Source: Azospirillaceae bacterium (GTDB lineage Bacteria; Pseudomonadota; Alphaproteobacteria; Azospirillales; Azospirillaceae). From it: a stretch of DNA of 64,000 nt. Below the pieces are notes generated by a model. The model was not told where the DNA came from and did not search any database. It saw only the letters and a list, made by a program, of their open reading frames with translations. The translations under genes and the position numbers were made by a program. Shown here piece by piece: positions 1 through 22,057 of the stretch; within the stretch, counting starts at the first letter, position 1, and each line of letters starts with the position of its first letter. Where the stretch lies: positions 434,001 through 498,000 of the forward strand of contig JAPWJW010000001.1 in the NCBI GenBank assembly GCA_028283825.1, read 5' to 3'.

Positions 1-215
1 TCGACGTCTATCGCCGCCTGTACCCGGAAGCGGGGGAGGAAGGCTACACGTGGTGGTCCAACCGGGGCCAGGCCTGGGCCAAGAACGTGGGCTGGCGCAT
101 CGACTACCAGATCGCCACGCCGGGCGTCGCCGCCACGGCCAAAAGTGCCGCCATCTTCAAGGACCAGCGCTTCAGCGACCACGCACCGCTGACGGTCGAC
201 TACGCGGCCCCCTGA
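1..215 (+). CDS. xthA: Exodeoxyribonuclease III, C-terminal part (cut by window edge)
   Basis: Only the last 70 residues are in the window; the frame is open from base 3 to the TGA at 213-215. The fragment carries the signature end of the exonuclease III/AP-endonuclease family (EEP fold): WWSNRGQAW, GWRIDYQ and the C-terminal SDHAPL, in which Asp-His belong to the catalytic site. By family knowledge it cleaves DNA at abasic sites and degrades duplex DNA 3' to 5' in base excision repair. No terminator with a U-tract follows; instead a structured repeat starts 6 bases after the stop. ExoA-type paralogues share the motif, so the exact subfamily is inferred. Confidence 0.88.
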   Translation, partial: DVYRRLYPEAGEEGYTWWSNRGQAWAKNVGWRIDYQIATPGVAATAKSAAIFKDQRFSDHAPLTVDYAAP

Positions 216-220
216 TGTCG

Positions 221-350
221 GCGGCATGAGCCTTGCCATGCCGCCGTAGGCTGCGACCGCAGCCGCCGGACCTTTCCGGGGAGCCGAAGGCGGACTGGAA
301 AGGGAGGACAAGCCTTAGGGCGCGGATGCGCCCGCCCGGCGTTTGAGGGG
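221..350 (+). repeat. Five-stem intergenic repeat, copy 1
   Basis: First of about 14 copies of a dispersed element, described here for all. In order it has: stem 0 (arms here GCGGCATG/CATGCCGC), then TGTAG-like link, stem 1 with a GACC loop (GGCTGC/GCAGCC), CGCCGGA, stem 2 (CCTTTCC/GGAAAGG) enclosing a conserved GGGGAGC...GCGGACT loop, GAGGA, stem 3 with a GGAT loop (GGGCGC/GCGCCC), CCGGCGCTTGAGGG, and in some copies a fifth hairpin. Loops and linkers are conserved while stem arms differ between copies with matching changes on both sides. This copy lies between xthA and the MerR-type gene and lacks the fifth hairpin. Confidence 0.9.
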
Positions 351-448
351 AATGAAAATAACCCTTGAGCCGGACCTTGGGTCATAGCCGCACCGTCCCT
401 TTATCGACGAATGATTGGGGAATGACGGTGCGTTGGGAGAAAAAGGCC

Positions 449-1216
449 ATGGCCCACAAGCCCGTAGCGGCATCCCCCGTCCTGACGGCGGCCGACGCCG
501 CCGCGCAGGTAGGGCTGACGGTACGGGCGCTGCGGGTGTACGAGGCGCGCGGCCTGCTGGATCCGCCCCGCACCGAAAAGGGCTGGCGGCTGTACGGCCC
601 CCGGGAGTTCCAGCGCCTGGGCATCATCCAGGCGCTTAAATCCCTCGGGTTGTCACTGGCCGAGATCTCCCGTGTCCTGGCTGGCGACACCCCGTCGCTG
701 CGGCGCGTGCTGGAGGTGCAAGCCACCCTCTGGCGCGGGCGGCTGGCGGCGGCGCAAGCCGGGCTGGACCTGGTGCAACAGGCCCTGGCCCGCACCGACA
801 CCACCCCGATCTCCGTCGATGATCTGTGCATATTGATCCGGAGATTGGACATGACCACCCTGCCTGAAACCCTGCGCACCGTCCTGGCTGAGGACTATAC
901 GGCCGAACAGCGCGCCGACCTTTTGACGCCCACCGGCACACCGGAGGCGGCGGCCGAGGGCGCGCGCGCCTGGGCAACCTTGATCGCCGACATCCAGGCC
1001 CTGCGGACGGCCGGCGTGCCCGCCACCGACGCCCGCGCCAAGGACGCGGCAAAACGCTGGCAGGGCCTGACCGCCGCCTTCACCCAGGGCGACGCGGCCG
1101 TGGCCGCCCGCACCGGCGGCCTGTGGCAAAAGGCGCTTGCCCGCGACCCGCAAGGCCAGGGCCTGCCCTTCGACAAAGGCCTGTGGGACTACGTGGCGGA
1201 AGCCGCGCGGAGCTGA
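449..1216 (+). CDS. MerR-family regulator with TipAS-like C-terminal domain
   Basis: 255 residues. An N-terminal MerR winged helix-turn-helix is clear at about residues 10-75 (LTVRALRVYEARGLLDPPRT, then RLYGPREFQRL). The C-terminal half (about 150-250) resembles the TipAS ligand-binding domain, seen in the Trp/Ala-rich helices around AAKRWQGLTAAFTQGD. Such regulators sense small hydrophobic or antibiotic-like molecules and twist promoter DNA; the ligand here is unknown. Start ATG 449 has GGGAG about 10 bases upstream; in-frame ATGs at 365 and 422 are less well placed. It stands alone, with repeats on both sides and a strong terminator just after the stop. Confidence 0.85.
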   Translation: MAHKPVAASPVLTAADAAAQVGLTVRALRVYEARGLLDPPRTEKGWRLYGPREFQRLGIIQALKSLGLSLAEISRVLAGDTPSLRRVLEVQATLWRGRLAAAQAGLDLVQQALARTDTTPISVDDLCILIRRLDMTTLPETLRTVLAEDYTAEQRADLLTPTGTPEAAAEGARAWATLIADIQALRTAGVPATDARAKDAAKRWQGLTAAFTQGDAAVAARTGGLWQKALARDPQGQGLPFDKGLWDYVAEAARS

Positions 1217-1220
1217 TGTG

Positions 1221-1252
1221 AAAAGGGCGGCCCTGAGGGACCGCCCTTTTTT
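1221..1252 (+). terminator. Rho-independent terminator after the MerR-type gene
   Basis: AAAAGGGCGG stem, CCTGAGG loop region and CCGCCC arm followed by a run of six T. It begins 5 bases after the stop codon. Confidence 0.9.
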
Positions 1253-1260
1253 CTGCGTGC

Positions 1261-1370
1261 CACCGGCATGAGGCGCCGCCTCGTGCCGGTGGAGGCCGGC
1301 GACTGCCGGCCCGGACCGGTCAGGTCCGTGAGGCAAGGGCCCGGATGGGCCCGCCCGCCGCCTGAGGGAA
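1261..1370 (+). repeat. Five-stem intergenic repeat, copy 2 (divergent)
   Basis: A diverged copy in which stem pairing is fully kept: stem 0 is long (CACCGGCATGAGGC/GCCTCGTGCCGGTG), stem 1 is GGCCGGC/GCCGGCC with loop GACT, stem 2 is reduced to CGGACC/GGTCCG with a short loop, and stem 3 is GGGCCC/GGGCCC around GGAT. It sits between the convergent MerR-type gene and the efflux lipoprotein gene. Confidence 0.75.
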
Positions 1371-1382
1371 CACGAACAAGCT

Positions 1383-2954
1383 TCAGCGCGCGGCCTGGGC
1401 CTGCGACAGGAAGGAGCTGCCATCATCCTGCCAGCCGCCACCCAGCGCCTTGTACAGGCTGACGCTGGCCTGCACCCGCGACAGCTTCACCTGGGCCAGG
1501 GTGTCCTGGGTGGTCAGCAGCGTGCGCTGCGTGTCCAGCAGGGTCTGCAGGTCGGTCAGGCCGCCCTTGTAGCGATCCTCCGCCAACTCGAACGCCCGCT
1601 GGCTCTGCGCCACGGCGTCGCGCTGCAGGGTGTACTGGTCCTGGTAGCGGTCGATGGAGTAGACGGCACCCTCAACGTCCGACAGGGCGGACAGGGCGGC
1701 CTTGCGGTAGCTCTCCGCCAACTCGCGATGCCGGCCCTGGGCCTGGTGCACCTGGCCCTCCAGCCGGCCGCCGGAGAAGATGCTCTGCGCGATATCGGCG
1801 CCCAGGCTGGCCAGCAGGGTGGGGGCGTTCACCAGATGGGCCAGGGTGGCGGCCTCCACCCCGGTGCTGGCGTTCAGGCTCACCGACGGCAGCATCTGGG
1901 TACGCGCCACCTTGATGTCGGCGCCGGCGGCAGCCAACTGCGCTTCGGCATAACGGATGTCGGGGCGGCGGGCCAGCAGTTCGGCCGGAACGCCGGTGCC
2001 CAGCGCCGGCGGCTGCACGTCGGCCATGCCGGTGGCCTGCACCTGGAAGCCTTCCGGCGGACGGCCCAGCAGGATGGCCAGCGCGTTCAGCTGGATGCGT
2101 TCCTGCTGTTCCAGGGCCGGGATGGCGGCGCGCTGGGCAGCCACGGTGGCCTTCTGCTGCACCAGGTCCAGCTGGCTGTCGGCGCCAGCCTCGACCCGCG
2201 CCTGGATCAGGTTCAGCACGCCCTGGGCGTTGTCCAGGTTACCGCGCGCCACCGTCAGCCGGTCGCGCAACGACAGGATCTGGAAGTAGGTGCTGGCGAC
2301 GTTGCTGCTGAGCGCCAGGGCCACCGTCTCATTGTCGAAACGGCTGGCGTCCAGGCTGAACTGGGCGGAGTCGCGCGTGGCGCGGTTCTTCCCCCAGAAG
2401 TCGATCTCATAGCTGGCCGACGCCGTGACGCTGTGCACGTTGCCGGCATAATCGGTGGGCGACACGCTGGTCAGGGGGGCGGCGGCCGAACCCTTGATGT
2501 TGCGGGTCATGGTGCGGGTGCTGTCCAGCCCCAGTTGCACGCTGGGCCATAGGGACGCGCCGGAGATTTCGGCCTGCGCCTCCGCCTGGGCGATGCGGGC
2601 GGCGGCGGCACCCAGGTCGGGGTTGTCGGCCCGCGCCTGCGCCAGAATCTGCGTCAGTTCCAGCGAGTTGAAGCCGGCCCACCAGTCGGTCGTGGGCCAG
2701 GCGGCTGCCTGGGTCGTCACGGCGGCGACCTTGGTGGTGTTGTCGGCGGCACCGCCCTGGGTGCTGGTGGCGTCCCACTGGGACGGCATCGCCAGCGTCT
2801 TGGCGGGATCGGTCGGGGTTTCCCCGTCCAGCGCGCAGGCCGCCAGCATCAGCGGCAGGAAGGCGGCGGCCAGTCGGCTGGTCACCGACCGGTTGAACCA
2901 GAAGCGGGTGGCCCCGGAAGCGGCGGCCAGGGAACGCGGGGACGTCGTGGACAT
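1383..2954 (-). CDS. NodT-family outer-membrane efflux lipoprotein
   Basis: 523 residues. The N-terminus is a lipoprotein signal with lipobox LAAC (Cys about residue 40). Two OEP (TolC-like) repeats follow, with typical phrases DWWAGFNSLELTQIL, AQAEAQAEISGASLWPSV, YEIDFWGKNR and LLARRPDIRYAEAQLAAAGADI. It should form the trimeric outer-membrane duct of an RND or MFS pump. ATG 2954 is preceded by GAAGG at 6 bases; a longer frame to 3068 lacks the lipoprotein signal at its start. No periplasmic adaptor or RND gene adjoins it; the nearest transporter is the Bcr/CflA exporter 424 bases upstream on the same strand. A partner elsewhere in the genome is likely. Confidence 0.9.
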   Translation of the reverse strand: MSTTSPRSLAAASGATRFWFNRSVTSRLAAAFLPLMLAACALDGETPTDPAKTLAMPSQWDATSTQGGAADNTTKVAAVTTQAAAWPTTDWWAGFNSLELTQILAQARADNPDLGAAAARIAQAEAQAEISGASLWPSVQLGLDSTRTMTRNIKGSAAAPLTSVSPTDYAGNVHSVTASASYEIDFWGKNRATRDSAQFSLDASRFDNETVALALSSNVASTYFQILSLRDRLTVARGNLDNAQGVLNLIQARVEAGADSQLDLVQQKATVAAQRAAIPALEQQERIQLNALAILLGRPPEGFQVQATGMADVQPPALGTGVPAELLARRPDIRYAEAQLAAAGADIKVARTQMLPSVSLNASTGVEAATLAHLVNAPTLLASLGADIAQSIFSGGRLEGQVHQAQGRHRELAESYRKAALSALSDVEGAVYSIDRYQDQYTLQRDAVAQSQRAFELAEDRYKGGLTDLQTLLDTQRTLLTTQDTLAQVKLSRVQASVSLYKALGGGWQDDGSSFLSQAQAAR

Positions 2955-3213
2955 CGTGAACCTTCGATCCGGCAAAGTGGGGGTGCGCCCCGGCCGCTCC
3001 GTAAGGGACGCCGCCAGGGGACAGGATGTCTGAATGGAACGCGAGAAAAGGCGTGAACCGTTTCGCACCGGCCCCCTTCGGGATGGCCCTCCGCCCGGGT
3101 CCGCTGCAATCGTGCAGCTATGTACAGCGCCGCCCGCCGCGTCTCAGTGACGCGGCGCACATCGGTTAACGGGATAGATGCCGCCCCTCACCAGCGCCGC
3201 GTCCGGCTTGTAC
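2955..3213. other. Upstream region of the efflux lipoprotein gene, with two inverted repeats
   Basis: No gene is seen. Two good inverted repeats lie here: GCTGCA-ATCG-TGCAGC at 3103-3118 and GCCGCGTC-TCAGT-GACGCGGC at 3136-3156. Either could be a repressor site or a leader hairpin for the minus-strand efflux gene. No confident promoter boxes were recognised. Confidence 0.4.
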
Positions 3214-3370
3214 CAGCGGCACAAAATTTCGACTCGCGCCGCTGTAGCCCGCGACCGCGGGCGCCGGAGCTTTCCGGGGAGCCGGGCGGACTGGAAAGCG
3301 AGGAAGCCCAAGCCAGCGGATGCTGGCGCCCGGCGCCTGAGGGGGCATTTGAACGGTCACGTTCAAATGC
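3214..3370 (+). repeat. Five-stem intergenic repeat, copy 3
   Basis: Nearly complete: stem 0 outer arms CAGCGGC/GCCGCTG, stem 1 GCCCGC/GCGGGC, stem 2 GCTTTCC/GGAAAGC, stem 3 GCCAGC/GCTGGC, and a fifth hairpin CATTTGAAC/GTTCAAATG around GGTCAC ending 9 bases before the exporter stop codon. Confidence 0.9.
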
Positions 3371-3378
3371 CACACGTA

Positions 3379-4632
3379 TCAGCGGATGAAGACGCGGTTG
3401 AAGACGAAACCCAGCACGCCCACGCCGCCGATGATGGCGGTCATGGGCCAGGGGGTGCCGTCGGCCAGCCAGCCCACCAGGGTGCCGACGACGGCGCCGG
3501 TGACGAACTGGGTGGAGCCCATCAGGGCGGACGCCGTGCCCGCCATATGCGGGTATGAGGCCAGCGCGCCAGCGGTGGAGTTGGCGCCGATCAGGCCGGT
3601 GAAGGCCATGAACAGGAACAGCCCGGCGACGATACCATAGAGGCCGCCGAAGCCCGTCCACCCGGCCACCGCCAGGCCGATGCCGAACACGGCGATGCAG
3701 GCCGACCCCAGGGCCAGCAGGCGGTCGGTGCCCAGGCGCAGCACCAGCCGGCTGTTGACCATGTTGACGATGATCATGCCGACGATGTTGACGCCGAACA
3801 GCAAGCCGTACAGGCCCGGCCGGACGTGGAAATAGTCGATGTAGACGAAGGGTGTGCCCGCGATGTAGGCGAACATGCCGCCGTAGATCATGCTGCTGGT
3901 CAGGGCATAACCCAGGAAACGGCCACTGGACAGAAGCTTGCCGTAGGCGCGCACCTGGTCCCAGACACGCGCATTGGCCCGCGCCGTGGGGTGCAGGGTC
4001 TCCGGCTGGCTGAGCAGGCCGACCATGGCGATCAGGCCGAAGCCGGCCTGCACCCAGAAGATGGCGCGCCAGCCCAGGATGGCCAGCACCTGGCCACCCA
4101 CCAGCGGCGCCGCCATCGGGGCGACACCCATGATCAGCATCATCAGGGAAAAGACGCTGGCGGCGCGATCGCGGTCGAAGACGTCACGCACCATGGCGCG
4201 GGCCAGCACCGGGGCGGCGCAGGCGCCCGCCGCCTGCATGGCGCGGCTGAAACTCAGCATGGTGATGTCGCTGGCGGCCGCACACCCCGCACTGCCTGCC
4301 AGGTACAGCAGGATGCCGGCCAGCACCGGGCCGCGGCGGCCGTAGCGGTCGCCCAGCGGCCCCCAGAACAGCTGGCACAGGCCGAAGGCCAGGAAGAAGG
4401 CGGAGAGGGAGGCCTCGACGCCGGCCTGGGTGATGCCCAAATCCTGGGCGATCTGCGGCATGGCCGGCAGGTACATGTCGACGGACATGGAACCGAAGGA
4501 CATCAGCAGGGCCAGCATGGCGACGAAACCCACGCCACGCTGCGTGAACAGGCCCGTGCCCTTTCGAACGACCTCGCCCGCCGACGCCACCACCGGGGCC
4601 ATACCGCCCTCGACCACCCGCTCCGCCGTCAC
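3379..4632 (-). CDS. Bcr/CflA-family multidrug MFS exporter
   Basis: 417 residues with about 12 hydrophobic segments. The first helix region MSVDMYLPAMPQIAQDLG and the loop motif GPLGDRYGRRGPVL are hallmarks of the Bcr/CflA drug:proton antiporters of the inner membrane. Substrates cannot be read from the sequence; family members export bicyclomycin, chloramphenicol or sulfonamides. The frame begins with GTG at 4632, which has a good CTGGGGG Shine-Dalgarno 6 bases upstream; an internal ATG at 4602 is an alternative. It is followed on the same strand by the outer-membrane efflux gene, but the 424-base gap with a structured repeat argues against a simple operon. Confidence 0.88.
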   Translation of the reverse strand: MTAERVVEGGMAPVVASAGEVVRKGTGLFTQRGVGFVAMLALLMSFGSMSVDMYLPAMPQIAQDLGITQAGVEASLSAFFLAFGLCQLFWGPLGDRYGRRGPVLAGILLYLAGSAGCAAASDITMLSFSRAMQAAGACAAPVLARAMVRDVFDRDRAASVFSLMMLIMGVAPMAAPLVGGQVLAILGWRAIFWVQAGFGLIAMVGLLSQPETLHPTARANARVWDQVRAYGKLLSSGRFLGYALTSSMIYGGMFAYIAGTPFVYIDYFHVRPGLYGLLFGVNIVGMIIVNMVNSRLVLRLGTDRLLALGSACIAVFGIGLAVAGWTGFGGLYGIVAGLFLFMAFTGLIGANSTAGALASYPHMAGTASALMGSTQFVTGAVVGTLVGWLADGTPWPMTAIIGGVGVLGFVFNRVFIR

Positions 4633-4790
4633 GTCGAACCCCCAGGGGGCGCCGTCCCGGGCTGCCCGCCAATGCCTAACTGTTGCGATGCGATAATGAT
4701 GGCGTCCGGCGCGCCGCTGACCAACCGGCCCTTTGGCGGATCAGCCCCGCGTGGCGCGGTGGGCATCGTTACGGGATGGTTAATGTGCCA

Positions 4791-4947
4791 GCGGCACGAG
4801 ACTCTGACTCGTGCCGCTGTAGGACGCGACCGCGTCCGCCGGAAGTTTTCGGGAAACGCAGTGGACTGGAAACTGAGGAAGCCCAAGCCAGCGGATGCTG
4901 GCGCCCGGCGCTTGAGGGGGCCTTTGATCGGTCAAGATCAAAGGCCG
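4791..4947 (+). repeat. Five-stem intergenic repeat, copy 4 (type copy)
   Basis: The most complete copy, with all five hairpins: stem 0 GCGGCACGAG/CTCGTGCCGC, stem 1 GGACGC/GCGTCC, stem 2 AGTTTTC with the partly matching GGAAACT, stem 3 GCCAGC/GCTGGC, and a fifth perfect hairpin at 4919-4946 (GGCCTTTGATC/GATCAAAGGCC). It lies between the exporter start and the 3' end of the small lipoprotein gene. Confidence 0.92.
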
Positions 4948-4964
4948 CGCGTATGGGACACAGA

Positions 4965-5009
4965 CAAAGGCCGAAGGAACCCACTTTGAAAGGGTTCCCC
5001 CGGCCTTTG
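4965..5009 (-). terminator. Hairpin downstream of the 41-residue lipoprotein gene
   Basis: Long stem AAAGGCCG...GGAACCC pairing with GGGTTCC...CGGCCTTT, 38 bases past the minus-strand stop codon. Read on the minus strand it ends in CTTTGTCTGTG, a weak U-tract. Confidence 0.6.
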
Positions 5010-5046
5010 ATGGGCCTAACCGGCCGTCACGCCCGGGGCTGGCGGA

Positions 5047-5172
5047 TCAGTAATGCCAGTAGTGATGATGGTCGTGATAGGGGCGGTCTTCGATGATGCA
5101 ACCGGACAGTCCGGCCAGCACCATCCCGGCCAGCACCAGCCGGGTCACGATGGAACGGGAACGGTCACTCAT
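5047..5172 (-). CDS. Tiny His/Tyr-rich lipoprotein (41 residues)
   Basis: A short gene: ATG at 5172 preceded by GGAGAGAG, TGA at 5047. The product has a basic start, a hydrophobic stretch and a textbook lipobox LSGC with Cys at residue 25, leaving only a 17-residue mature peptide after the Cys, CIIEDRPYHDHHHYWHY. The many His, Asp and Tyr residues suggest metal or surface binding, but no function is known. It lies just downstream (same strand) of another lipoprotein with the same LSGC lipobox. The strong ribosome site, lipobox and following hairpin make it a real gene in my view; no homologue is recalled. Confidence 0.7.
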   Translation of the reverse strand: MSDRSRSIVTRLVLAGMVLAGLSGCIIEDRPYHDHHHYWHY

Positions 5173-5348
5173 GATCTCTCTCCGGACAATCTGGCCGTAG
5201 CCCCGGCGCCATCCCGGCGCCTCAGCAACGTGGCTATCGGCATGACTTCAAGATGGCCCCCAAATGCGACGAGAAGACGGCGGAGCCTAGGCATCATCAG
5301 GCTTTTGACGTGGCACGCTGACGCAGGCTGGCCCCCAATGACGCCAAC

Positions 5349-5376
5349 GCCCGGCCCCCTGGGAGAGGGGCCGGGC
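5349..5376 (-). terminator. Hairpin after the Gly/Tyr-rich lipoprotein gene
   Basis: GCCCGGCCCC pairs with GGGGCCGGGC around CTGGGAGA. It lies 40 bases beyond the stop of the upstream lipoprotein gene, with no clear U-tract, and would separate it from the 41-residue gene. Confidence 0.6.
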
Positions 5377-5415
5377 GCGACAGGGATTCCCGCTTGAGAC
5401 GCAAGGCTGGAGGGC

Positions 5416-5850
5416 TTAGTGACCCCGGCCGCCACCGCCGTGGAAGCCACCACCACCGCCATGGAAGCCACCGCCCCCATGGAAGCCGCCGCCATGGTAG
5501 CCGCCGAACCGGCCGCCACCCCAACCGCCGCGGCCGCCCCAATAGCCGCCACCCCAATAGGCGCCGGCGTAATAGGGGAAGCCGACGCCGTAGGCGCCGT
5601 AATAGTAGGGGTCGTAATAACCGGCCCCATAATAATAGGGGTAGTCATAGTCATAACTGTAGGCGGAGGCCGACGCCGTGGTGGGCGTGCCGTAACCGTA
5701 ATAGTCGCTGGCCACGCAGCCGCTGAGCGATGTCAGCGCCAACCCGGCGACCAGGCCCGACATCAGCAGACGACGCCACCGCGGCGATGCGGAGGCACCA
5801 GCGGACCCAGTGTTCGACGCGATGGTGGTGGGGAACCCGGTCATGGACAT
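5416..5850 (-). CDS. Gly/Tyr/His-rich lipoprotein
   Basis: 144 residues. After a signal region ending in lipobox LSGC (Cys about residue 43) comes a tail of very low complexity: a Tyr-rich part (YDYDYPYYYGAGYYDPYYYG), then GGYWGGRGGWGGG and a run of GGFHGGGG repeats. No domain is recognised; such tails suggest a surface or periplasmic adhesive, metal-binding or stress protein. ATG 5850 has AGGGAG 9 bases upstream; ATG 5844 is a close alternative. The frame extends upstream to 6117 but without a ribosome site. The downstream 41-residue lipoprotein shares the lipobox and Tyr/His bias, so the two may be related. Confidence 0.75.
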   Translation of the reverse strand: MSMTGFPTTIASNTGSAGASASPRWRRLLMSGLVAGLALTSLSGCVASDYYGYGTPTTASASAYSYDYDYPYYYGAGYYDPYYYGAYGVGFPYYAGAYWGGGYWGGRGGWGGGRFGGYHGGGFHGGGGFHGGGGGFHGGGGRGH

Positions 5851-6241
5851 GATGGCGCACTCCCTGGACAAATCAGCAGGGACAGGTGCTCGGGAAGACA
5901 CGAAAGCGTGGTGTCGGTCTCGGGGGTCGGTCACCGGCGGTGCTTGCCGCCCGGCGATTAACGGCCCCGGCTGACACCCGGGCACACATCCTGTACTGCA
6001 AATGTGTTCGCGACCGAACGGACACAAGGGGTGCATCCATGCAGGTCTGGGCCGCACAGCCGGCGCGCCGGGTTTTGGAACCTGGATTCCGGCCGGCGGG
6101 CGGGGCAATGCTTCCAAGCCGATTCCGGCCTTGCGCGATCCACCCTATGCGGAAGGTCCGCGCCAAGGCTGGCGTCCGGCGCCGGTTTGAGTTATGTGGC
6201 AGCCCATGACGCACCCCTTATCCCATGAGACCCGTGACCCC
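5851..6241. other. Divergent upstream region of lipoprotein and ychJ genes
   Basis: About 390 bases without a convincing gene on either strand. It must hold the promoters of both flanking genes; no clear promoter boxes or operators were recognised. Confidence 0.4.
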
Positions 6242-6721
<480 letters not shown>

Positions 6722-6751
6722 GCCCGGCACCGGAAAGCCATTGATGTTTTG

Positions 6752-6783
6752 ACCCCGCCCGGATCGATCTGGGCGGGGTTTTT
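6752..6783 (+). terminator. Terminator after ychJ
   Basis: ACCCCGCCC pairs with GGGCGGGGT around a GGATCGATCT loop region, followed by TTTTC. It lies between ychJ and the convergent DUF6624-like gene. Confidence 0.88.
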
Positions 6784-6790
6784 CATTGAA

Positions 6791-7867
6791 TCATTGCGCT
6801 ACCGGCGCCGCATCCGCCTTGACCGGGGCAGAACCCATCCCCTTGCAGCCGGCATCCATGCGCGCCTGATAGGCAGTCGCCGGTTCCAGACCCAGGGCGG
6901 CACGACGGCCGTCCAGCTGGCCGGGATCGGCCAGGGTATAGGCGTGCCAGGTGTGGCTGATCTCGTCACAGGCGCCCTGGGTGCCGTAAAGCTGGACAGT
7001 GTTGGTGGCCAAGGCCAGGCGGTCGTGCAACAGGGCGTAGCCGGCACCGGGGGAACGGCCGGCCTCCGCCGCCGCTTGAGCCAGGGGCAGGGCCTTGGCG
7101 GCCAAAACCCCGTCCGTCGCCATCATCTGCAGCAGGGTGCCGGCCGCGATGTCGGCGCGCAGGCCCCAATCGGCGGCGGCCGGCCAGGCGCCCAGCCGGT
7201 CGAACAGACGCAGAAGGCGGTCATGGGCCAGGGCCGCCACATCCTTTACTCGTTGAGCCTTGGCCTTCAGGCAGGGGGCCTGGTCGGCTGCCGGCAGTGC
7301 CTGGCACACCGGCTGGCGGTTGGCCAGCAGCAGCACCTCATGCAGGGCGACCAGTTCACCGGCCACGCACGCCGCCTGCGTGGCCGGGCAGGTGCTGGCC
7401 TGCACATCGGCCATCACCTGCCGACTGAGGTCATCCACCGTCGCCGCCGTGGGTGGCAGATGGCGGTGTTCCATGGTGTAGGGGATGGAGAAGTCGTCGC
7501 GCACCACGTCCAGCCGGGTGTCCACCGCCTGGGCCCGCGCCTTGATGCGGGCCGCCGCCGCCGCGCGATCGGCCAGGCAGCCCTTGTCGCCTGGGCAATC
7601 GGGATAGGCGCTGGCCAGCCCCACGGCCGACCAGGCCAGGCTATGCAGGCCCAGCGCGCACACCCGATCGGCCAGGTCGCAGGCGTGGATGTCCAGCGCG
7701 GTGTCCACCTGGTCAAGCCAGGCGGTGGCCGCCTGTTCCGCAGCCGCCGGCGTGGCGGGCCCGAAGATCGCCGCCCGCGCCGGCCCCATGGCCAACTGCA
7801 TCATGACCAGCGGCACCAGCGCCGTCCGCCCGACCCAAGCACATACACGCCCCAAAGCCGCCCCCAT
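6791..7867 (-). CDS. Exported DUF6624-like protein
   Basis: 358 residues with a signal peptide (hydrophobic segment about 15-32, cleavage after ARA). The mature part is helical and holds several Cys (for example CDLADRVCALG and CPATQAACVAGE). Its last third has the DUF6624 pattern: TVQLYGTQGACDE, then DPGQLDGRRAALGLEP and a final YQARMDAGC. DUF6624 proteins have no known activity. It is the third gene of a probable minus-strand operon with the PhyH-fold gene (65 bases upstream) and the amidohydrolase gene. Confidence 0.7.
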   Translation of the reverse strand: MGAALGRVCAWVGRTALVPLVMMQLAMGPARAAIFGPATPAAAEQAATAWLDQVDTALDIHACDLADRVCALGLHSLAWSAVGLASAYPDCPGDKGCLADRAAAAARIKARAQAVDTRLDVVRDDFSIPYTMEHRHLPPTAATVDDLSRQVMADVQASTCPATQAACVAGELVALHEVLLLANRQPVCQALPAADQAPCLKAKAQRVKDVAALAHDRLLRLFDRLGAWPAAADWGLRADIAAGTLLQMMATDGVLAAKALPLAQAAAEAGRSPGAGYALLHDRLALATNTVQLYGTQGACDEISHTWHAYTLADPGQLDGRRAALGLEPATAYQARMDAGCKGMGSAPVKADAAPVAQ

Positions 7868-7932
7868 CGGTGGTTATTGGACTGATCAACACTACCCTGG
7901 CCTGTCATACGATCCAAGCGGGGGATCGCACC

Positions 7933-8826
7933 CTAGCGCCGGCGCATGATCAGTTGATTGACGTCGGGATCGAAGTTGCTGTCCCGGCCCAGCCACGGCG
8001 GGCGTGGCATGTGGGGGGAGGCGTGCACATTGTACTGTGCCGACAGCACCAGGCCGCCGGCACCAGCCGTCCCCAGCCGCCGCTTATGGAAGCCGGCGGT
8101 ATCGGCGATGAAACGCGTGCCGGCCGGCCCGGCCAGGGCGGTGGCCTTGTCCACGCCGAAGAGGCGATGGACCAGGACATCCTCGCAGGGCCACGCCACC
8201 GCCAGGCGCGAATCGCGGTGGCTGCCCCGCACGAAGACGAAGGCGCCATCCTCCGGCACATCCGTCAGGTGGAAGAACAGGGTGAAGCCCTTCAGCGTGT
8301 CCCAGGCGCGACGGTATCCCGGCGCCGGCGCGGCCCCGTCGGTCCAGCCACAGCGCACGGCGTCCAGCACCGGCTTGCAGCCCAGGTACACCTCCGCCAT
8401 GTCCAGCAGGGTGGAATCGTTCAGCAGCGACAGCACGTGCGGCGCCGCCAGGACGTCCGCCGCCGCATAAGACGCCGTACCCGTCCCGTCGGCGACAGGG
8501 CGGGGCAGGCTGTCGAAATGGGCGCGGATCTCGGCCAGGCGGTCACCGCCCAGCGGCGGCAGGGTCACCAGGCCTTGCCAGGCCAGATCCCGCGCCCAGG
8601 ACCGCGCCACGTTGGACGGGCTGGGCCACAGCGACTTGGCCTGGAAGAAGGCCACCACGCCCGCCAGGGCGTCCCGCACCCCAGGCGACCAGACCAGGGG
8701 CTGCAGGTCGTAGGCGGCCAGCCGCCAGTCGGACTGCGCCCGCTCCTGGAAGGCCCGGAAGAACGGGATGCGCGCGCGCAGGCGATCCATCCACCCGATG
8801 CGACCTCCGTTCACCGCGCCCATCAT
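7933..8826 (-). CDS. PhyH-fold (phytanoyl-CoA dioxygenase family) protein, probable pseudoenzyme
   Basis: 297 residues. The C-terminal half matches the PhyH jelly roll: LFFHLTDVPEDGAFVFVRGS, then FIADTAGFHKRRLG and LSAQYNVH. In active Fe(II)/2-oxoglutarate members an HxD motif lies 14 residues before the LTDV strand; here that position reads Arg172-Arg173-Ala174, so two of the three iron ligands appear missing, while distal His247 remains. A non-catalytic role is inferred. The start is ambiguous: ATG 8826 lies in a 17-base tandem duplication, and in-frame ATG 8790 has GGAGGT 12 bases upstream. It sits between an amidohydrolase and a DUF6624-like gene on the same strand. Confidence 0.7.
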   Translation of the reverse strand: MMGAVNGGRIGWMDRLRARIPFFRAFQERAQSDWRLAAYDLQPLVWSPGVRDALAGVVAFFQAKSLWPSPSNVARSWARDLAWQGLVTLPPLGGDRLAEIRAHFDSLPRPVADGTGTASYAAADVLAAPHVLSLLNDSTLLDMAEVYLGCKPVLDAVRCGWTDGAAPAPGYRRAWDTLKGFTLFFHLTDVPEDGAFVFVRGSHRDSRLAVAWPCEDVLVHRLFGVDKATALAGPAGTRFIADTAGFHKRRLGTAGAGGLVLSAQYNVHASPHMPRPPWLGRDSNFDPDVNQLIMRRR

Positions 8827-8844
8827 CTCACCGCGCCCATCATC
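8811..8844. repeat. 17-base perfect tandem duplication at a gene start
   Basis: TCACCGCGCCCATCATC occurs twice in direct succession (8811-8827 and 8828-8844). The unit contains the minus-strand ATGATG of the PhyH-fold gene, so the upstream copy repeats the start codons out of frame with the gene. Confidence 0.85.
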
Positions 8845-8871
8845 GCCTCCGTCACCCGGGGCCGGCCATCG

Positions 8872-10209
8872 TCACAGGGTGGGCCGGCCGTCGGCCTTGT
8901 AGACCACGCCACCCTTCATGACAAACCGCACCTGTTCCATCAACTCCAGATGGGTCAGGGGGTCGCCGGCCACGGCGATCAGGTCGGCGAAACGGCCGGG
9001 CTGCACCGTGCCGATGCGGTCCGACGCGCCGACCAGGTCGGCGGCGTTGCGGGTGGCGAACATCAGGGTGTCGGCCGGGGTCACGCCGGCCTCCGCCAGC
9101 AAGGCGAATTCGCGGGCGTGGTCGCCCTCGCCGATGTCGGTGCCGTAGGCGATCTTGACCCCCGCCTTGTAGGCCAGCGGCAGGTTGCGCTTCGGGATGG
9201 CGTCGTTGGCCAGTTCCTTTTCCGCCGTCCCCGGGGGCAGCAGTTCGGGATGTTCCTGGGCGGCCTTCATGAACACGTCGTAGACGGTCAGGGTGGGCAC
9301 CAGGTAGGTGCCGTGCGCCTTCATGGCCTTCACCGCCTCGGCATCCGCGAACGATCCGTGCTCAATGGAATCGACGCCGGCGTTCACGGTGTTGATGATG
9401 GCCTGGGACGGATAGGTGTGGGCCGCCACCTTGAGCCCCAAGCTGTGGGCCATGTCGATGGTGGCCTTGATCTCCTCATTCGTCATCAGCTGGGCCCGGG
9501 GGTCGTCGCCCGTGCTGGCGATGCCGCCGGACGGCATGATCTTGATCAGGTCGGCGCCGCGCTTGTGGTGTTCGCGCACCCGCAGGCGCGCCATGTCCGG
9601 CGTGTCGACGATGCCGTTTTCCCAATCGGGATGGTGCAAGCGGGAATCGAAGCCGTTGGACGGGTCGCCATGGCCGCCGGTGGGGCCCAGCGGTTCCAGC
9701 GATACCCACAGGCGCGGGCCCGGCACCTTGCCCGCGTTGATGGCGTTGCGCAGGGACACCGTGTCATCCCCGCCGCCCACGTCCCGGGCGCTGGTGAACC
9801 CCTGCAGCAGCAGGGCGCGGGCGAAGACGGCGCCGTCCAGCACGGCGTCCACCGCGTTGTGGGTCATCATGTCCTCCACCGCGTTGACCTGGCTGGGCAG
9901 CTTGGCGGAGATGTGGATGTGGCAGTCGATCAGGCCGGGCAGGACCGTCTGGTCCTTCAGGTCGATCACCGTGGCGCCGGGGTGGGCGACGTAGCCGGCC
10001 TCCACCGCCACCACCTTGCCGCCCTGCACCACGATGGTGACCTGGTGGCGCGGGGTGAAGGTGACGCCATCGATCAGCGAACCGGCGTAGACCACGGTAT
10101 CGTGGGGCACCGTGTCTTCCGCACGCGCCGTCGTTGCCATCGTCGCCATCGCCGTGCCGGACAGCATCACGGCCGCCAGCCGGCACCGCCACCCCATCGC
10201 AATCCCCAT
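8872..10209 (-). CDS. Exported metal-dependent amidohydrolase
   Basis: 445 residues with a signal peptide (cleavage near TTARAED). It is of the imidazolonepropionase/prolidase-like amidohydrolase group: HIH at residues 97-99, the probable carboxylated Lys in LIKIMPSGG, His in VAAHTYPSQ and IEHGSFAD, and Asp in KIAYGTDIGEGDHAREF. These are the ligands of a binuclear metal centre in a TIM barrel. Homologues hydrolyse Xaa-Pro dipeptides, cyclic imides or aryl amides, usually in the periplasm; the substrate here is unknown. ATG 10209 has AGGGGA 9 bases upstream, better than the GTG at 10215. First gene of a probable three-gene operon (45 bases to the next). Confidence 0.88.
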   Translation of the reverse strand: MGIAMGWRCRLAAVMLSGTAMATMATTARAEDTVPHDTVVYAGSLIDGVTFTPRHQVTIVVQGGKVVAVEAGYVAHPGATVIDLKDQTVLPGLIDCHIHISAKLPSQVNAVEDMMTHNAVDAVLDGAVFARALLLQGFTSARDVGGGDDTVSLRNAINAGKVPGPRLWVSLEPLGPTGGHGDPSNGFDSRLHHPDWENGIVDTPDMARLRVREHHKRGADLIKIMPSGGIASTGDDPRAQLMTNEEIKATIDMAHSLGLKVAAHTYPSQAIINTVNAGVDSIEHGSFADAEAVKAMKAHGTYLVPTLTVYDVFMKAAQEHPELLPPGTAEKELANDAIPKRNLPLAYKAGVKIAYGTDIGEGDHAREFALLAEAGVTPADTLMFATRNAADLVGASDRIGTVQPGRFADLIAVAGDPLTHLELMEQVRFVMKGGVVYKADGRPTL

Positions 10210-10361
10210 CGTCACATATCCCCTGCGGACTTTTTGTTGATGCGGCCACCGTAGCCGTCAGCCGGGCGCACCCGCAACCGCCATCCATGCCAAGTCATTG
10301 CCAAATACAGGGCGATCATGTGTTTTAGCGGCGCCCCTGACGCAGGACACCGACCGCCGCC

Positions 10362-10901
10362 ATGACCACGCCCCCTCCCCCGCCGCCGCCCGGCATCCAC
10401 ATCCGCGACGCCACCCAGGCCGACCTGCCGCGAATCGTGGAGATCCTGAACCACGCCATCGTCCACACCACGGCGGTGTGGAGCCTGGAGCCCACCAGCG
10501 TGGCGGCGCGCACACCCTGGCTGGCGGAACGCCAGGCCAAGGGTTTCCCCGTCCTGGTGGCGACGGACGGGCCAGACGCCCCGCCGGGTGAGATCCTGGG
10601 CTTCGCCTCCTACGGCGATTTCCGGCCCTTCGCCGGCTATCTGCACACGGTGGAGAATTCGCTGTACGTGGATGCGGCGGCACGCGGCCGGGGCATCGGC
10701 CACGCCCTGCTGGCGGCCCTGCTGAAGCGCGCCGAGGCCGCCGGCCTGCACGCCATGATCGCCGGCATCGAGGCCGGCAATGAGACCAGCATCCGCCTGC
10801 ACGAACGCTTCGGCTTCACCGAGACCGGGCGCCTGCCCCAGGTGGGACGCAAGTTCGACCGCTGGTTGGATCTGGTGTTCCTGCAGAAGATATTCGATTA
10901 A
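10362..10901 (+). CDS. GNAT acetyltransferase, phosphinothricin/methionine-sulfoximine type
   Basis: 179 residues. After a poly-Pro start it shows IRDATQADLPRIVEILNHAI and then SLYVDAAARGRGIGHALLAAL, the acetyl-CoA loop (RGRGIG), and the family ending GNETSIRLHERFGFTETGRL with KFDRWLDLVFLQK. This is the pattern of PAT/Bar and MddA/YncA enzymes that N-acetylate phosphinothricin, methionine sulfoximine or related amino-acid analogues. ATG 10362 is chosen because the domain starts within 15 residues. Divergent from the amidohydrolase gene; a structured repeat follows directly. Confidence 0.88.
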   Translation: MTTPPPPPPPGIHIRDATQADLPRIVEILNHAIVHTTAVWSLEPTSVAARTPWLAERQAKGFPVLVATDGPDAPPGEILGFASYGDFRPFAGYLHTVENSLYVDAAARGRGIGHALLAALLKRAEAAGLHAMIAGIEAGNETSIRLHERFGFTETGRLPQVGRKFDRWLDLVFLQKIFD

Positions 10902-10918
10902 TAAGTTTGGTCTTTCGT

Positions 10919-11049
10919 CCCCTCAAGCGCCGGGCGCCGACATCCGTCGGCTTGGCTGATCCTCGCATTTCAGTCCGCTGACGCTCCCCAAAATGCTCCG
11001 GCAGACGCCGTCGCGTCCTACGGCAGCATGAGACTCCGGCTCATGCCGC
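10919..11049 (-). repeat. Five-stem intergenic repeat, copy 5
   Basis: Minus orientation. Read on its own strand: stem 0 GGCGGCATGAG/CTCATGCTGCC, stem 1 GGACGC/GCGTCT (one G-U), stem 2 GCATTT/AAATGC, stem 3 GCCGAC/GTCGGC with loop GGAT. The stem 2 and stem 3 arms are unique to this copy yet fully paired. No fifth hairpin. Confidence 0.9.
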
Positions 11050-11096
11050 CGATGATCCCCAGGTCTCCCTGTCACCTTTGCAGGATCCCCACGCCC

Positions 11097-11723
11097 ATGG
11101 AAATCCACGCCCCGGAAAGCCCCATCCATTCCCTCAAGGAATTCGCCGTCCACATCGGCGTGGTCACCATCGGCATCCTGATCGCCCTGGGCCTGGAACA
11201 GGCGGTGGAGGCCTATCACCGCCACGAGTTGGCGCATGAGGCGGTGGAAAGCTTCCATGCGGAACTGAAAGACAACAGCGACGCGATCAGCGCCGTGCTG
11301 GCCGATTTCGCCGACAACGACGCCCGCGCGGAACGGGATATCGCCCTGCTGACCAGCCCGCAGGCGGCCGAGGGCGAGTTGCTGAAGTACCCCAACCTGC
11401 GCCTGGACCTGCTATCCACCGCCAGTTGGGACACGGCCATCGCCACCCATGCCCTGGCCGAAATCCCCTATGCCCAGGTCCGCGCCTACACCGACGCCTA
11501 CAACACGGTGCGCCTGTTCATGGAGGAGGAGAAAGCACAGTTGGCCGACTGGCAGACCCTGCGCGTCTACGGCGACGCCCCCGCCCAGATCGATCCGGCA
11601 CAGCGCCAGGCGCTGGTCCAGCGGCTGCGGGCCTACCGCAACTACGTCATCGTGCTGAACCTGGCCGGCAAAAGCGCTTTGGAGTCCATCGCCAAAGCCA
11701 CCGGCGAAGCCAAAGGGCACTGA
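11097..11723 (+). CDS. Single-pass membrane protein of unknown function
   Basis: 208 residues. A short cytosolic start (MEIHAPESPIHSLKEFAVH) leads into one transmembrane helix (about residues 23-42, IGVVTIGILIALGLEQAV), followed by a helical, charged domain with coiled-coil character (HRHELAHEAVESFHAEL, FADNDARAERDIALL). Similar proteins starting with MEIH-PxxPIHSxK are common in Caulobacter-like and sphingomonad genomes, without a known role. ATG 11097 has GCAGGAT upstream and gives the conserved N-terminus; upstream ATGs fall in the repeat. Confidence 0.7.
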   Translation: MEIHAPESPIHSLKEFAVHIGVVTIGILIALGLEQAVEAYHRHELAHEAVESFHAELKDNSDAISAVLADFADNDARAERDIALLTSPQAAEGELLKYPNLRLDLLSTASWDTAIATHALAEIPYAQVRAYTDAYNTVRLFMEEEKAQLADWQTLRVYGDAPAQIDPAQRQALVQRLRAYRNYVIVLNLAGKSALESIAKATGEAKGH

Positions 11724-11730
11724 TACGCGT

Positions 11731-11862
11731 GGCCTTTGATCTTGACCGATCAAAGGCCCCCTCAAGCGCCGGGCGCCAGCATCCGCTGGCTGGGCTGATC
11801 CTCGCTTTCCAGTCCGCTCCGCTCCCCGGAAAGCTCCGGCGGCCGCAGTCGCGGCCTACAGC
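11731..11862 (-). repeat. Five-stem intergenic repeat, copy 6 (no stem 0)
   Basis: Minus orientation, between convergent genes. Its fifth hairpin (11731-11758) is base-for-base identical to that of copy 4. Stem 1 GGCCGC/GCGGCC with loop GACT, stem 2 GCTTTCC/GGAAAGC, stem 3 GCCAGC/GCTGGC. The element stops after TGTAG, 6 bases before the stop codon of the neighbouring regulator gene, so stem 0 is absent. Confidence 0.9.
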
Positions 11863-11868
11863 CCCCGA

Positions 11869-13311
11869 TCAGCTGGTCGGCGGCCCGATGTAGCTGGACA
11901 GGCCGCGGATGTTCTCATCCACCACCAGGCGGTGGTTCAGGGGTGGGAAGGCGCGCTGGGTGCAGTCCAGGCGGGGACAGAGGCGGCAGTTGGTGCCCAC
12001 CGGTGTCGCCTGCCCCCCCGCCAGATCCATGCCGTCGGCGTAGATCAGCTGGTGGGCCTGGCTGCCCTCGCACCCCAGGCTGAGGGCGAACTGCCGCGGC
12101 ACGCTTTTCCACCCGCCGGCCTTGCTGAGGGTGCGGGCGATGGCGAAATAGTTGGTGCCGTCGGGCATGCGCATCAGCTGGGTCAGGATCTGTCCCGGAT
12201 TGCGGAAGGCCTGGTGCACGGTCCAGCGCGGGCAGCCGCCGCCGAAGCGCGCCATGTGGAAGCCGGGCACGGCGCTGAAACGTTTGGAGATGTTGCCCGC
12301 CGGGTCCACCCGCACCAGGAAGAAGGGCACGCCCTTGGCCCCCGGCCGCTGCAGGGTCGTCAGGCGGTGGCAGACCTGTTCGAAGCTGGCGACGAAGCGG
12401 TGCATCAGCACCTCGATGTCATACCGCGCGGACTTCGCCGCCTCCAGGAAGCGGCCGTAGGGCATCATGACGGATGCCGCGAAATATCCCGCCAGGACGA
12501 TGCGGGCCAGCTGACGCGACTCCTCGGCAACCATGTTGGCCTTCTCCACCGTGGCGCCCAGCAGGTCACGGTGGCGCATCAGCGCCACCTGCACCGCCAG
12601 CTGGAAGGTGCGGCCCGCCGGCGGCAGCATTTCGGAGATCAGCACGCGGCGGGAATGGCGGTCGTAGCGGCGCACCGTCTCACCCATCACCTCCACCGGC
12701 ATCAGCTTGACCGTCAGGCCGTGCGCCTTGTGCACGAAGCGGGAGAGGGAGCCGTAGAGGTCGCCCGAATCCAGGTCGGCATCGAACCACAACGTTTCCG
12801 CCGCCAGTTCCAGTTCGGGGAAATGGTTGTTCTGGTCCTGGAAGAATTCCCCCACCTCATCCTGGGCGAAGTGCTGGCCGGCCGCCTGCGGCTGTTCACG
12901 GTCGCGGTGGTCCACCTTCTCCGCCAGCGCCTGCACATCCTCGCGCGCCTCCAGATAGGCGCGGTAGAGGGTGACGACCGCCTGGCCCAGGGTGGGGGCG
13001 ACGGCCGCCAGTTCCTTCATGTCCTGGTTCTTGATGTCGTTGTGGTCGAACAGCGGGTCGGCGAACACCTCGCGCAGGCCGGCCACCAGCCGCACCTCGT
13101 CATCCTCGGCAAAGGTGGACAGGTCGACATCGAAGGTCTGGCCGATCTTCAGCAGCAGGGTGACGGTCAGTGGCCGCTGATTGCCCTCGATCAGATTGAG
13201 GTAGGAGGGGGAGATGCCCAGCATCTCCGCCATCTGGGCCTGGGTCAGGTGCAGGTCGCGCCGCAGGCGCCGCACCTTGTGGCCCAGCATCGCCTTCTTT
13301 TCAGCCGCCAT
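11869..13311 (-). CDS. ScfR/RamB-type XRE regulator of short-chain fatty acyl-CoA metabolism
   Basis: 480 residues. An XRE helix-turn-helix occupies about residues 9-63 (GHKVRRLRRDLHLTQAQMAEMLGIS, PSYLNLIEGNQRPLT), followed by an IrrE/ImmA-like peptidase-fold region (about 150-300; AAETLWFDADL, GRTFQLAVQVALMRHRDLLG) and a C-terminal Cys-rich part (GTNCRLCPRLDCTQRAFPP) typical of DUF2083. This architecture is that of RamB (Corynebacterium) and ScfR, which act with acyl-CoA ligands on glyoxylate-cycle genes. ATG 13311 is set by GGGAGG 7 bases upstream; ATG 13317 would leave only one base. It is divergent from aceA, its likely target. Confidence 0.88.
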   Translation of the reverse strand: MAAEKKAMLGHKVRRLRRDLHLTQAQMAEMLGISPSYLNLIEGNQRPLTVTLLLKIGQTFDVDLSTFAEDDEVRLVAGLREVFADPLFDHNDIKNQDMKELAAVAPTLGQAVVTLYRAYLEAREDVQALAEKVDHRDREQPQAAGQHFAQDEVGEFFQDQNNHFPELELAAETLWFDADLDSGDLYGSLSRFVHKAHGLTVKLMPVEVMGETVRRYDRHSRRVLISEMLPPAGRTFQLAVQVALMRHRDLLGATVEKANMVAEESRQLARIVLAGYFAASVMMPYGRFLEAAKSARYDIEVLMHRFVASFEQVCHRLTTLQRPGAKGVPFFLVRVDPAGNISKRFSAVPGFHMARFGGGCPRWTVHQAFRNPGQILTQLMRMPDGTNYFAIARTLSKAGGWKSVPRQFALSLGCEGSQAHQLIYADGMDLAGGQATPVGTNCRLCPRLDCTQRAFPPLNHRLVVDENIRGLSSYIGPPTS

Positions 13312-13395
13312 TCCCATACCTCCCGCGATCCGCGCCGGTGTTGCCCGGCTTCTTGTTCCAGACCCTTCCGCACTGCGCCGGAAGAGGTAAGTGAA

Positions 13396-13413
13396 TTTAC
13401 AAACTTTACAAGT
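13396..13413. promoter_or_regulatory. RamB-box-like operator between scfR-type gene and aceA
   Basis: The AT-rich stretch holds two direct TTTACAA units; AAACTTTACAAG at 13401-13412 matches the RamB box I recall from Corynebacterium, (A/G)AACTTTGCAAA, at all but two positions. It lies 85 bases upstream of the regulator start and about 220 bases from aceA. Binding by the neighbouring regulator is inferred. Confidence 0.45.
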
Positions 13414-13625
13414 TTTCATCCACAGACATTACAAGACATTACATGCTTACCACTTTTCAATCAAAGACTTATTGATCCGATTTACCAAATACCCCAAGTC
13501 TAATGCAGTGCAGTGAACGCGACGGACGCGGTGCGAACAAGGCGCCCATCGACGGTCACACCAACATTGCAGGGGCGACGGCCACGGGCGGCCCCCAAAG
13601 ACTTGCAAGAAAGGATGAAGCGACC

Positions 13626-14915: not shown

Positions 14916-14933
14916 GGTCTTCCGGTCCAGGAA

Positions 14934-15034
14934 CGGATGGTTCCAGGGAAAGGCCGACGCACCGTTCGCCTGGGACCATCCTTCGGGCGGCGGCGGGAGT
15001 AAACGACGCTGGAGCGTCCCGCCGCCACCCGGTT
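14934..15034 (+). terminator. Hairpin pair after aceA
   Basis: First a 13-base stem at 14934-14946/14970-14982 (GGATGGTTCCAGG with CCTGGGACCATCC, one mismatch), then GGCGGCGGGA...TCCCGCCGCC around AAACGACGCTGGAGCG at about 14988-15027. There is no long U-tract; the second hairpin is followed by GGTTTTCCCC. They may end or protect the aceA message. Confidence 0.6.
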
Positions 15035-15040
15035 TTCCCC

Positions 15041-15165
15041 TCAAGCAGCGGCGCCAAGCCGCTGTAGGCCCCGACCGGGGCCGCCGGTTTTCGGGGAGCG
15101 AAAGCGGACTGAAAGCCGAGGAAGCCCCAAGCCAGCCGATGCTGGCGCCCGGCGCTTGAGGGAAC
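15041..15165 (+). repeat. Five-stem intergenic repeat, copy 7
   Basis: Lies inside the aceA-malate synthase gap. Stem 0 CAGCGGC/GCCGCTG, stem 1 GGCCCC/GGGGCC, stem 2 GGTTTTC/GAAAGCC (one G-U), stem 3 GCCAGC/GCTGGC with loop CGAT. Preceded by CCCCTCAAG, which looks like the tail of an opposite copy. Confidence 0.88.
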
Positions 15166-15184
15166 ATTTACCGACCACGAGATC

Positions 15185-15271
15185 GGCAGGAAGGGCTCAG
15201 AGCCTTTCCTGCCCCTGAAGGGTGCGGCGGCGGGGTTTAACGACGCTGGAGCGTCCCGCCGCCGCACCCTT
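15185..15271 (+). repeat. Two hairpins before malate synthase, second a duplicate of the one after aceA
   Basis: GGCAGGAAGGGCT/AGCCTTTCCTGCC at 15185-15213 is followed at 15219-15271 by a long hairpin with GCGGCGGGG and CCCGCCGC arms around TTTAACGACGCTGGAGCGT. The loop and arms repeat the hairpin at 14988-15027 almost exactly, so this part was duplicated on either side of repeat copy 7. Confidence 0.75.
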
Positions 15272-15300
15272 CACCCTTCAAGAAAAACGGGAGAAGCATC

Positions 15301-16947: not shown

Positions 16948-16983
16948 GCAGCACCTTGCCCACCGTACATCCGTGACACGCCT

Positions 16984-18256: not shown

Positions 18257-18261
18257 TCTTT

Positions 18262-18365: not shown

Positions 18366-18384
18366 ACGCGCGGCGTTTGAACTC

Positions 18385-18475: not shown

Positions 18476-18478
18476 ATC

Positions 18479-22036: not shown

Positions 22037-22057
22037 AACAAAACCAAGCCGCCGCCG

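Follow-up and report, generated by a model that had tools for sequence, protein, structure and literature searches.

A folded repeat of about 100 nt, dispersed at gene 3′ ends, probably represents a new family of REP/BIME-like non-autonomous mobile repeats, whose trans-acting mover would read the folded strand, and to this reading we assign a probability of about 0.62. The repeat was studied in a window of 64,000 nt (positions 434001-498000 of a contig in a 7.16-Mb genome of 5 contigs), and the genome is taken as belonging to the soil bacterium Nitrospirillum, judging from one protein whose best named matches were Nitrospirillum iridis, N. amazonense, N. viridazoti and Azospirillum sp. B4. REP-like repeats are known mostly as short hairpins with a GTAG tag, associated with RAYT transposases. 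The element described here is an abundant and structurally richer family, present in a genus where no Y1 gene was found, and its cousins are spread over 18 families of a single class. Its many covarying copies in one genome amount to a natural mutational scan of a single fold and, with two thirds of the examined convergent gaps occupied, the role of such repeats in these gaps becomes testable.

The constant unit of the repeat is a core of three hairpins, numbered 2 to 4, arranged in the order TAG, hairpin 2 with a GAC(C/T/G) loop, GCCGGA, hairpin 3, GAGGA, a linker, hairpin 4 and YTGAGGG/A. Hairpin 3 consists of a seven-pair stem, a GGGGA/GGACT internal loop and a short tip, hairpin 4 carries a GGAT loop, and the loops and linkers of the core are nearly invariant across copies. 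The earlier note on this DNA had described five hairpins; the three inner ones are indeed constant, whereas hairpins 1 and 5, flanking the core on either side, are optional. Exact inverted arms of at least 8 nt were found within 50 nt 5′ of the core in 30 of 57 copies (hairpin 1) and within 45 nt 3′ of it in 18 of 57 (hairpin 5). The reference copy, scored with the covariance model R1, is laid out as follows:

4789-4819, + strand: hairpin 1 of the reference copy (optional, outer)
4820-4918, + strand: core of the reference copy, 106.7 bits with model R1
Parts of this core, in order: TAG; hairpin 2 at 4822-4837; the GCCGGA linker; hairpin 3 at 4844-4874; GAGGA
Hairpin 4 of the reference copy: stem at 4887-4902; second helix pairing 4881-4883 with 4907-4909; tail GCTTGAGGG
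4919-4946, + strand: hairpin 5 of the reference copy (optional), followed by GCGCGTAT

The second helix of hairpin 4, missing from the earlier five-hairpin description, is formed by GCC or GGC in the linker pairing with GGC or GCC 3′ of the stem. It is the weakest helix of the core, with 93.3% of its cells paired, and both sides are swapped in 4 of 35 copies. A competing helix, between GCCGG before hairpin 3 and CCGGC in the tail, is favoured by free energy in the three copies folded. It was nevertheless disfavoured: the 4 of 35 copies with a CGCC tail retain GCCGG, and it is their linker that becomes GGC instead. Because these copies change the linker and keep GCCGG, it is the local hairpin-4 helix that holds the covariation.

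Model R1 was built from 35 copies, 12 from the window and 23 from elsewhere in the same genome. All 14 copies listed in the earlier note are present, and the model resolves them into 12 intact copies at 96-115 bits, one shortened copy and one remnant. Apart from the reference copy, they are:

247-349, + strand: intact core, 104.3 bits with R1
1293-1368, + strand: shortened copy without most of hairpin 3, 38.8 bits with R1 and better matched by the short-cousin model R2 (62.9 bits)
3245-3343, + strand: intact core, hairpin 5 present, 104.6 bits with R1
10920-11020, - strand: intact core, 112 bits with R1; the matching interval of congeners G002, G003, G005 and G006 is without the element
11759-11858, - strand: intact core, hairpin 5 present, 114.8 bits with R1
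15065-15162, + strand: intact core, 96.4 bits with R1
18394-18476, - strand: remnant with hairpin 1, TAGG and a hairpin-4-like end, 21.1 bits with R1
21669-21767, - strand: intact core, 104.3 bits with R1; same-place counterparts in congeners G001 and, degenerate, G005
21938-22037, + strand: intact core, 105.4 bits with R1; another palindromic repeat replaces hairpin 1
35625-35724, + strand: intact core, member 1 of a tandem pair, 110.5 bits with R1
35737-35834, + strand: intact core, member 2 of the tandem pair, without hairpin 1, 107.6 bits with R1
40847-40947, - strand: intact core, 109.8 bits with R1; the interval of congeners G002, G003, G004, G005 and G006 is without this element
58739-58840, + strand: intact core, 110.2 bits with R1; same-place copies, some of another subtype, in congeners G002, G004, G005 and G006, none in G003

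Several other features of the window adjoin these copies or lie between them. A second palindromic repeat occurs at 18261-18365 and 21836-21940, in versions 95% identical that both adjoin copies of the element; at 21938 it stands in the place of hairpin 1, and similar letters are found beside copies elsewhere in the genome. As called here, the gene facing the last copy (58801-59871, - strand) terminates within it, the element providing the stop codon (58801-58803); in five congeners, the corresponding frame stops, by eye, before any element. Two long paralogous genes, at 29209-32163 and 42821-45661, lie about 13.5 kb apart and are 72-81% identical over several stretches.

The repeat is abundant well beyond the window. 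A strict pattern for hairpin 3, with the linker motifs fixed and the stems free, has 234 exact matches in the 7.16-Mb genome and none when reversed, and a relaxed version has 360 matches against 5 for the reversed control; in each of six other Nitrospirillum genomes, the relaxed pattern matches 56-102 times, against 2-7 reversed. The scan of the genome and its relatives with a covariance model, a check that the earlier note had proposed, gave matches in all seven Nitrospirillum genomes and in scattered relatives.

That the loops are fixed and the stems covary, as the earlier note had claimed, is borne out by the 35 aligned copies. In the assigned structure, 97.6% of 823 cells are standard pairs, and both sides have changed at 16 of 24 pairs, amounting to 145 cells against 40.6 in shuffles, a count reached by none of 500 shuffles. 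Sliding the partner registers by 1-3 columns drops pairing to 32-50%, and RNAalifold, unaided, recovers hairpins 2 and 3 and the inner part of hairpin 4. The strand reading TAGG..TGAGGG is the folding strand: among 58 model-aligned copies, its pair cells comprise 1302 Watson-Crick, 20 G-U, 4 A-C and 16 other combinations, a G-U to A-C comparison made among copies related by descent and with nine of the G-U cells at one pair, so that its nominal p-value is too optimistic. Covariation and G-U bias together support the earlier view that a folded single strand is what is kept. Three copies folded singly agree, the lowest-energy fold of the + strand having hairpins 2, 3 and 4 and that of the opposite strand lacking hairpin 3. 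The fold energies speak against this: two bare cores lie only modestly below shuffled sequences, the + strand doing no better than the other (z -1.76 and -1.82 vs -2.37 and -1.92), and the reference stretch 4820-4947, which includes hairpin 5, lies well below its shuffles (z -4.1 and -3.9). Broken pairs are few (20 of 1342 cells are A-C or other), in a set of model matches biased towards intact copies. This scarcity could mean that each copy is selected in place, i.e., that it has a host function.

The position of the copies was determined over 464 kb (the window plus 400 kb), with genes called by a small codon-usage caller that leaves starts rough. Among the 58 model hits placed, one lies at the edge, one overlaps a called gene and 56 could be classed: 31 in convergent, 23 in tandem and 2 in divergent gaps. 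Among gaps of at least 60 nt, the element occupies 27 of the 40 between convergent genes, 21 of the 128 between tandem genes and 2 of the 57 between divergent genes; where a stop codon faces the core, it lies no more than 50 nt from the core's 3′ edge 34 times out of 44. The location at gene 3′ ends and between convergent genes, already claimed in the earlier note, thus stands. Copies in tandem gaps have no orientation preference, 11 pointing with the genes and 12 against them. This absence of bias disfavours any function for which the upstream gene's mRNA would have to contain the + strand, and with it the 3′-end mRNA module that had been suggested for the element. The core is not an intrinsic terminator as a rule either, because TTTT follows within 12 nt in just 3 of 57 copies, and that candidate was rejected. 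Positions 1-20000 of the window hold 15 terminator-like sites, against 11.1 in shuffles, and none of them is made by hairpin 4 or 5 of a copy.

Comparison with other Nitrospirillum genomes suggests that the sites of the repeat turn over fast between congeners. BLAST located the flanks of all 14 window copies in several congeners each, and for 11 of these copies neither R1 nor R2 matches anything between the flanks in the congeners examined. Three window sites do have a model match in a congener: site 247 in G003, oriented the other way; site 21669 in G001 and, as a degenerate copy, in G005; and site 58739 in G002, G004, G005 and G006. At site 247, G002 and G006 also carry a remnant of hairpin 4, likewise reversed, which escaped the models. 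In a second region, 17 of 19 hits were compared, omitting those at 32592 and 48615 (67 and 58.5 bits), and the flank rule resolved 7 of the 17 sites; all seven are without an intact copy in the resolved genomes among G004, G005 and G006, G005 keeping a 5′ fragment at one of them. Two more sites of this region, 101032 and 172798, were inspected by hand, and there the same gene end of a relative is occupied by a truncated element or by a different one. Sites in both regions being mostly unshared with congeners, the mobility part of the REP-like mobile element proposed earlier gains support.

The copies also differ among themselves in ways that bear on their history. Median nearest-neighbour identity among 50 copies is 0.88 and mean pairwise identity 0.78; a nearest-neighbour value of 0.88 is not what one burst would give and appears to speak against a single recent one. 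Tandem copies with a period of about 100-120 bp occur in the same genome (L013-L015) and, by their coordinates, in G002, G003 and G004. Some gene ends hold different subtypes in different species, which could reflect replacement or decay rather than new insertion. Another subtype, with a different hairpin 3 (..GAGCACCGCAGGGC..-like), was seen at L153:3734-3822, L134:3814-3918, L138:13813-13900 and, in the window's own genome, on contig C1 near 1101032-1101119; occurring at gene ends common to several species, it may be an older subfamily.

Relatives of the element reach beyond the genus. Model R1, at E <= 1e-4, matches 11 of 30 genomes, namely all 7 Nitrospirillum genomes, 2 of the 11 further members of the family and 2 of the 12 further members of the class, with the number of matches counted per genome capped. 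Outside the genus, the repeat takes a short form, with hairpin 1, hairpin 2, a short hairpin 3, AAGCC, hairpin 4, TTGAGGG and often hairpin 5, so that hairpin 2, hairpin 4 and the tail are common to both forms and hairpin 3 is exchanged. The short form covaries as well: in an alignment of 20 sequences, 96.4% of cells are paired and 33 have changed on both sides, against 9.3 in shuffles. With stricter filters that lose weak matches, the short-form model at E <= 1e-5 matches 32 of 385 genomes of the class (the window's own included), in 25 of 277 genera and 18 families. A draw of 299 genomes from the phylum, searched in the same strict way, likewise with capped counts per genome, and with the share from other classes not stated in its output, gave 11 positives, all from the same class, and added two families. 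Carriers of short cousins include Niveispirillum cyanobacteriorum (G017) and G028. Families differ in their stems and in the hairpin 3 that they carry, yet they retain the order hairpin 2 - hairpin 3 - hairpin 4 - TTGAGGG, which points to a putative composite recognition code. A 47.9-kb record labelled viral_contigs (L302, L303, L289) carries the short form 16 times by pattern, partly as a 108-bp tandem array; its three stretches do not overlap beyond a repeat unit, and the record is possibly a host contig called viral.

One genome, G010, is very rich in the short form: of 150 candidates scored there, 148 reach E <= 0.001. Many of its copies are near-identical, often at contig ends. Here the outer ends read ATACC..GGTAT, an imperfect inverted repeat of about 17 bp, and the insides vary in size. 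The end motif, with at most one mismatch, has 407 + 385 matches (792 in 4.3 Mb) against 0 + 1 for the control, an unusually heavy repeat load with contigs ending in copies. Terminal inverted repeats are thus clear in G010, and in Nitrospirillum they are optional and weak. By eye, no clear target-site duplication was seen in G010, the flanks following TN|ATACC..GGTAT|NA with an N that is often unequal between the two sides.

The search for a mover covered the Y1 family of transposases and did not find one for the element. The Y1_Tnp domain (PF01797; IS200/RAYT) was found in none of 7 Nitrospirillum genomes, with control genomes positive, nor in G017 or G028 (77% complete), both carriers of cousins; G010 has two PF01797 genes and G024 one, and no copy of the element was noticed around the two of G010. 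PMC6006769 states that genomes of Alphaproteobacteria contain few Y1 homologues or none. A RAYT/Y1 (IS200) transposase, of the kind that the earlier note had said to look for, was rejected as the present mover in Nitrospirillum, given the negative result in all seven genomes.

In the main reading, we infer both the mover and any role of the element in mRNA. An enzyme acting in trans, which in Nitrospirillum today would not be of the Y1 type, would recognise the folded strand in single-stranded form. Insertions would survive, and perhaps be useful, at gene 3′ ends only, where strong hairpins in read-through RNA could protect or separate the ends of facing transcripts. The + strand fold is taken as being recognised by the mover and, less likely, by the cell. 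A more specific version, held only tentatively and with odds well short of even, is a class-wide mobile family in which a non-Y1 enzyme reads the three-hairpin fold of one DNA strand (or of RNA), with the invariant loops as code, the stems free to covary and the copies ending up at convergent 3′ ends.

The alternatives are exclusive neither of each other nor of the main reading, and their probabilities need not sum to one. The main rival gives the folded RNA a role in the host where convergent genes end: a 3′-end module would stabilise mRNAs or separate convergent transcripts, each copy being under selection. The filling of 27 of 40 convergent gaps and the avoidance of divergent ones fit it, as do the scarcity of broken pairs, the G-U bias and the stable fold of stretch 4820-4947 (z -4.1). 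However, the tandem copies point with the genes 11 times and against them 12, even though hairpin 3 forms on one strand, most sites are unshared between species, and a TTTT within 12 nt of the core in 3 of 57 copies leaves it no terminator as a rule, so that we consider a host module unlikely. Slightly less improbable, and still doubtful, is a MITE, a deletion derivative of an insertion sequence whose transposase would bind the outer inverted ends and carry the inner hairpins as cargo. G010 argues for it, with its 407 + 385 end-motif matches against 0 + 1 and its approximately 17-bp imperfect inverted ends around insides of varying size. Against this, many Nitrospirillum copies lack hairpin 1 or 5 and still keep the core intact, it is the core rather than the ends that is common to the families, no partner insertion sequence with the same ends was seen by eye in 3 of 20 G010 stretches, and target duplication is not clear.

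A GTAG-type REP whose RAYT has since been lost from the genus keeps a small probability, clearly below that of the two former readings, because the four letters ahead of hairpin 2 are GTAG in 38 of 57 copies (some other NTAG in 15, neither in the remaining 4). The REP-like position is in line with such an origin, and REPtron loss is reported by Di Nocera et al. (2013, PMC3733652). However, PF01797 was found neither in any of the seven Nitrospirillum genomes nor in G017 and G028 (77% complete), the cousins carry other tag letters, and the loci of the two Y1 genes of G010 did not show the element. The chance of a decoy that binds CsrA through GGA in the loops and linkers is close to nil: GGA does occur in the hairpin-4 loop, the linkers and the tail, and CsrA is present in 5 of the 12 genomes asked, but CsrA (PF02599) was not found in the window's genome or in six carriers of the element or its cousins (G006, G010, G017, G024, G059 and G061). 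For Nitrospirillum, where it was found neither in the window's genome nor in G006, the decoy was set aside.

The comparison with known repeats qualifies the earlier statement that no named family has this shape. Rfam release 15 gives 0 matches in the window at the gathering score; on the reference stretch, with E up to 5, there is one match (E 3.5, to the lncRNA model H19_3), and 18 cousin loci gave two matches, to a tRNA and to 5_ureB_sRNA, neither of them within the element. A word search of titles and abstract beginnings found no publication describing the element, a weak result given that most subscription journals fall outside its coverage. The kind of element, by contrast, is known, from REP/BIME, the CIR of Caulobacter and the bcr of Bacillus cereus.

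CIR (Caulobacter CcrM-associated intergenic repeats; Chen and Shapiro 2003, as described in PMC2229807) resemble the element in being about 110 bp long, intergenic, built of two hairpin arms and a linker and conserved across Alphaproteobacteria. However, GANTC, which that description gives as conserved in CIR, occurs in 0 of 57 element cores, so that identity with CIR is disfavoured; the element is set apart from CIR1-4 by description, not by sequences. In the hairpin-1 zone, the 50 nt 5′ of the core, GANTC (the CcrM methylation site) is found in 11 of 57 copies, about five-fold enriched over a background of 0.038 expected per 50 nt, and is not conserved. The repeats bcr1-bcr18 of the Bacillus cereus group are likewise dispersed, intergenic and similar in size, some being MITE-like and some having conserved structure according to PMC3446304 and PMC2267715, but they belong to another phylum and are assumed to be unrelated in sequence. 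Prokaryotic MITEs, as described in PMC10969869 and PMC2229807, are non-autonomous, folded, mostly intergenic and 100-200 bp long, and the G010 cousins share their inverted ends; unlike in MITEs, the part common to the families of the element is its inner core, and neither a partner insertion sequence nor a clear duplication was found.

A close likeness exists to REPs, which Di Nocera et al. (2013, PMC3733652) describe as palindromes of 20-40 bp, the GTAG ones with RAYTs, sitting between convergent or unidirectional genes near stop codons. With REP/BIME the element shares its abundance, the G-T pairs and complementary residue exchanges in its hairpin stems, composite arrays and a position at gene ends, rare between divergent genes; REPs come with GTAG or CGTC tags, and 38 of the 57 copies have GTAG ahead of hairpin 2. 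It differs in being an ordered set of about 100 nt, with three different hairpins, near-invariant linkers and the GGGGA/GGACT internal loop, in its inconstant tag, and in the Y1 gene not found in the seven Nitrospirillum genomes. In the wide sense of REP/BIME, that of many hairpins at gene 3′ ends with few in divergent gaps, the element falls among them.
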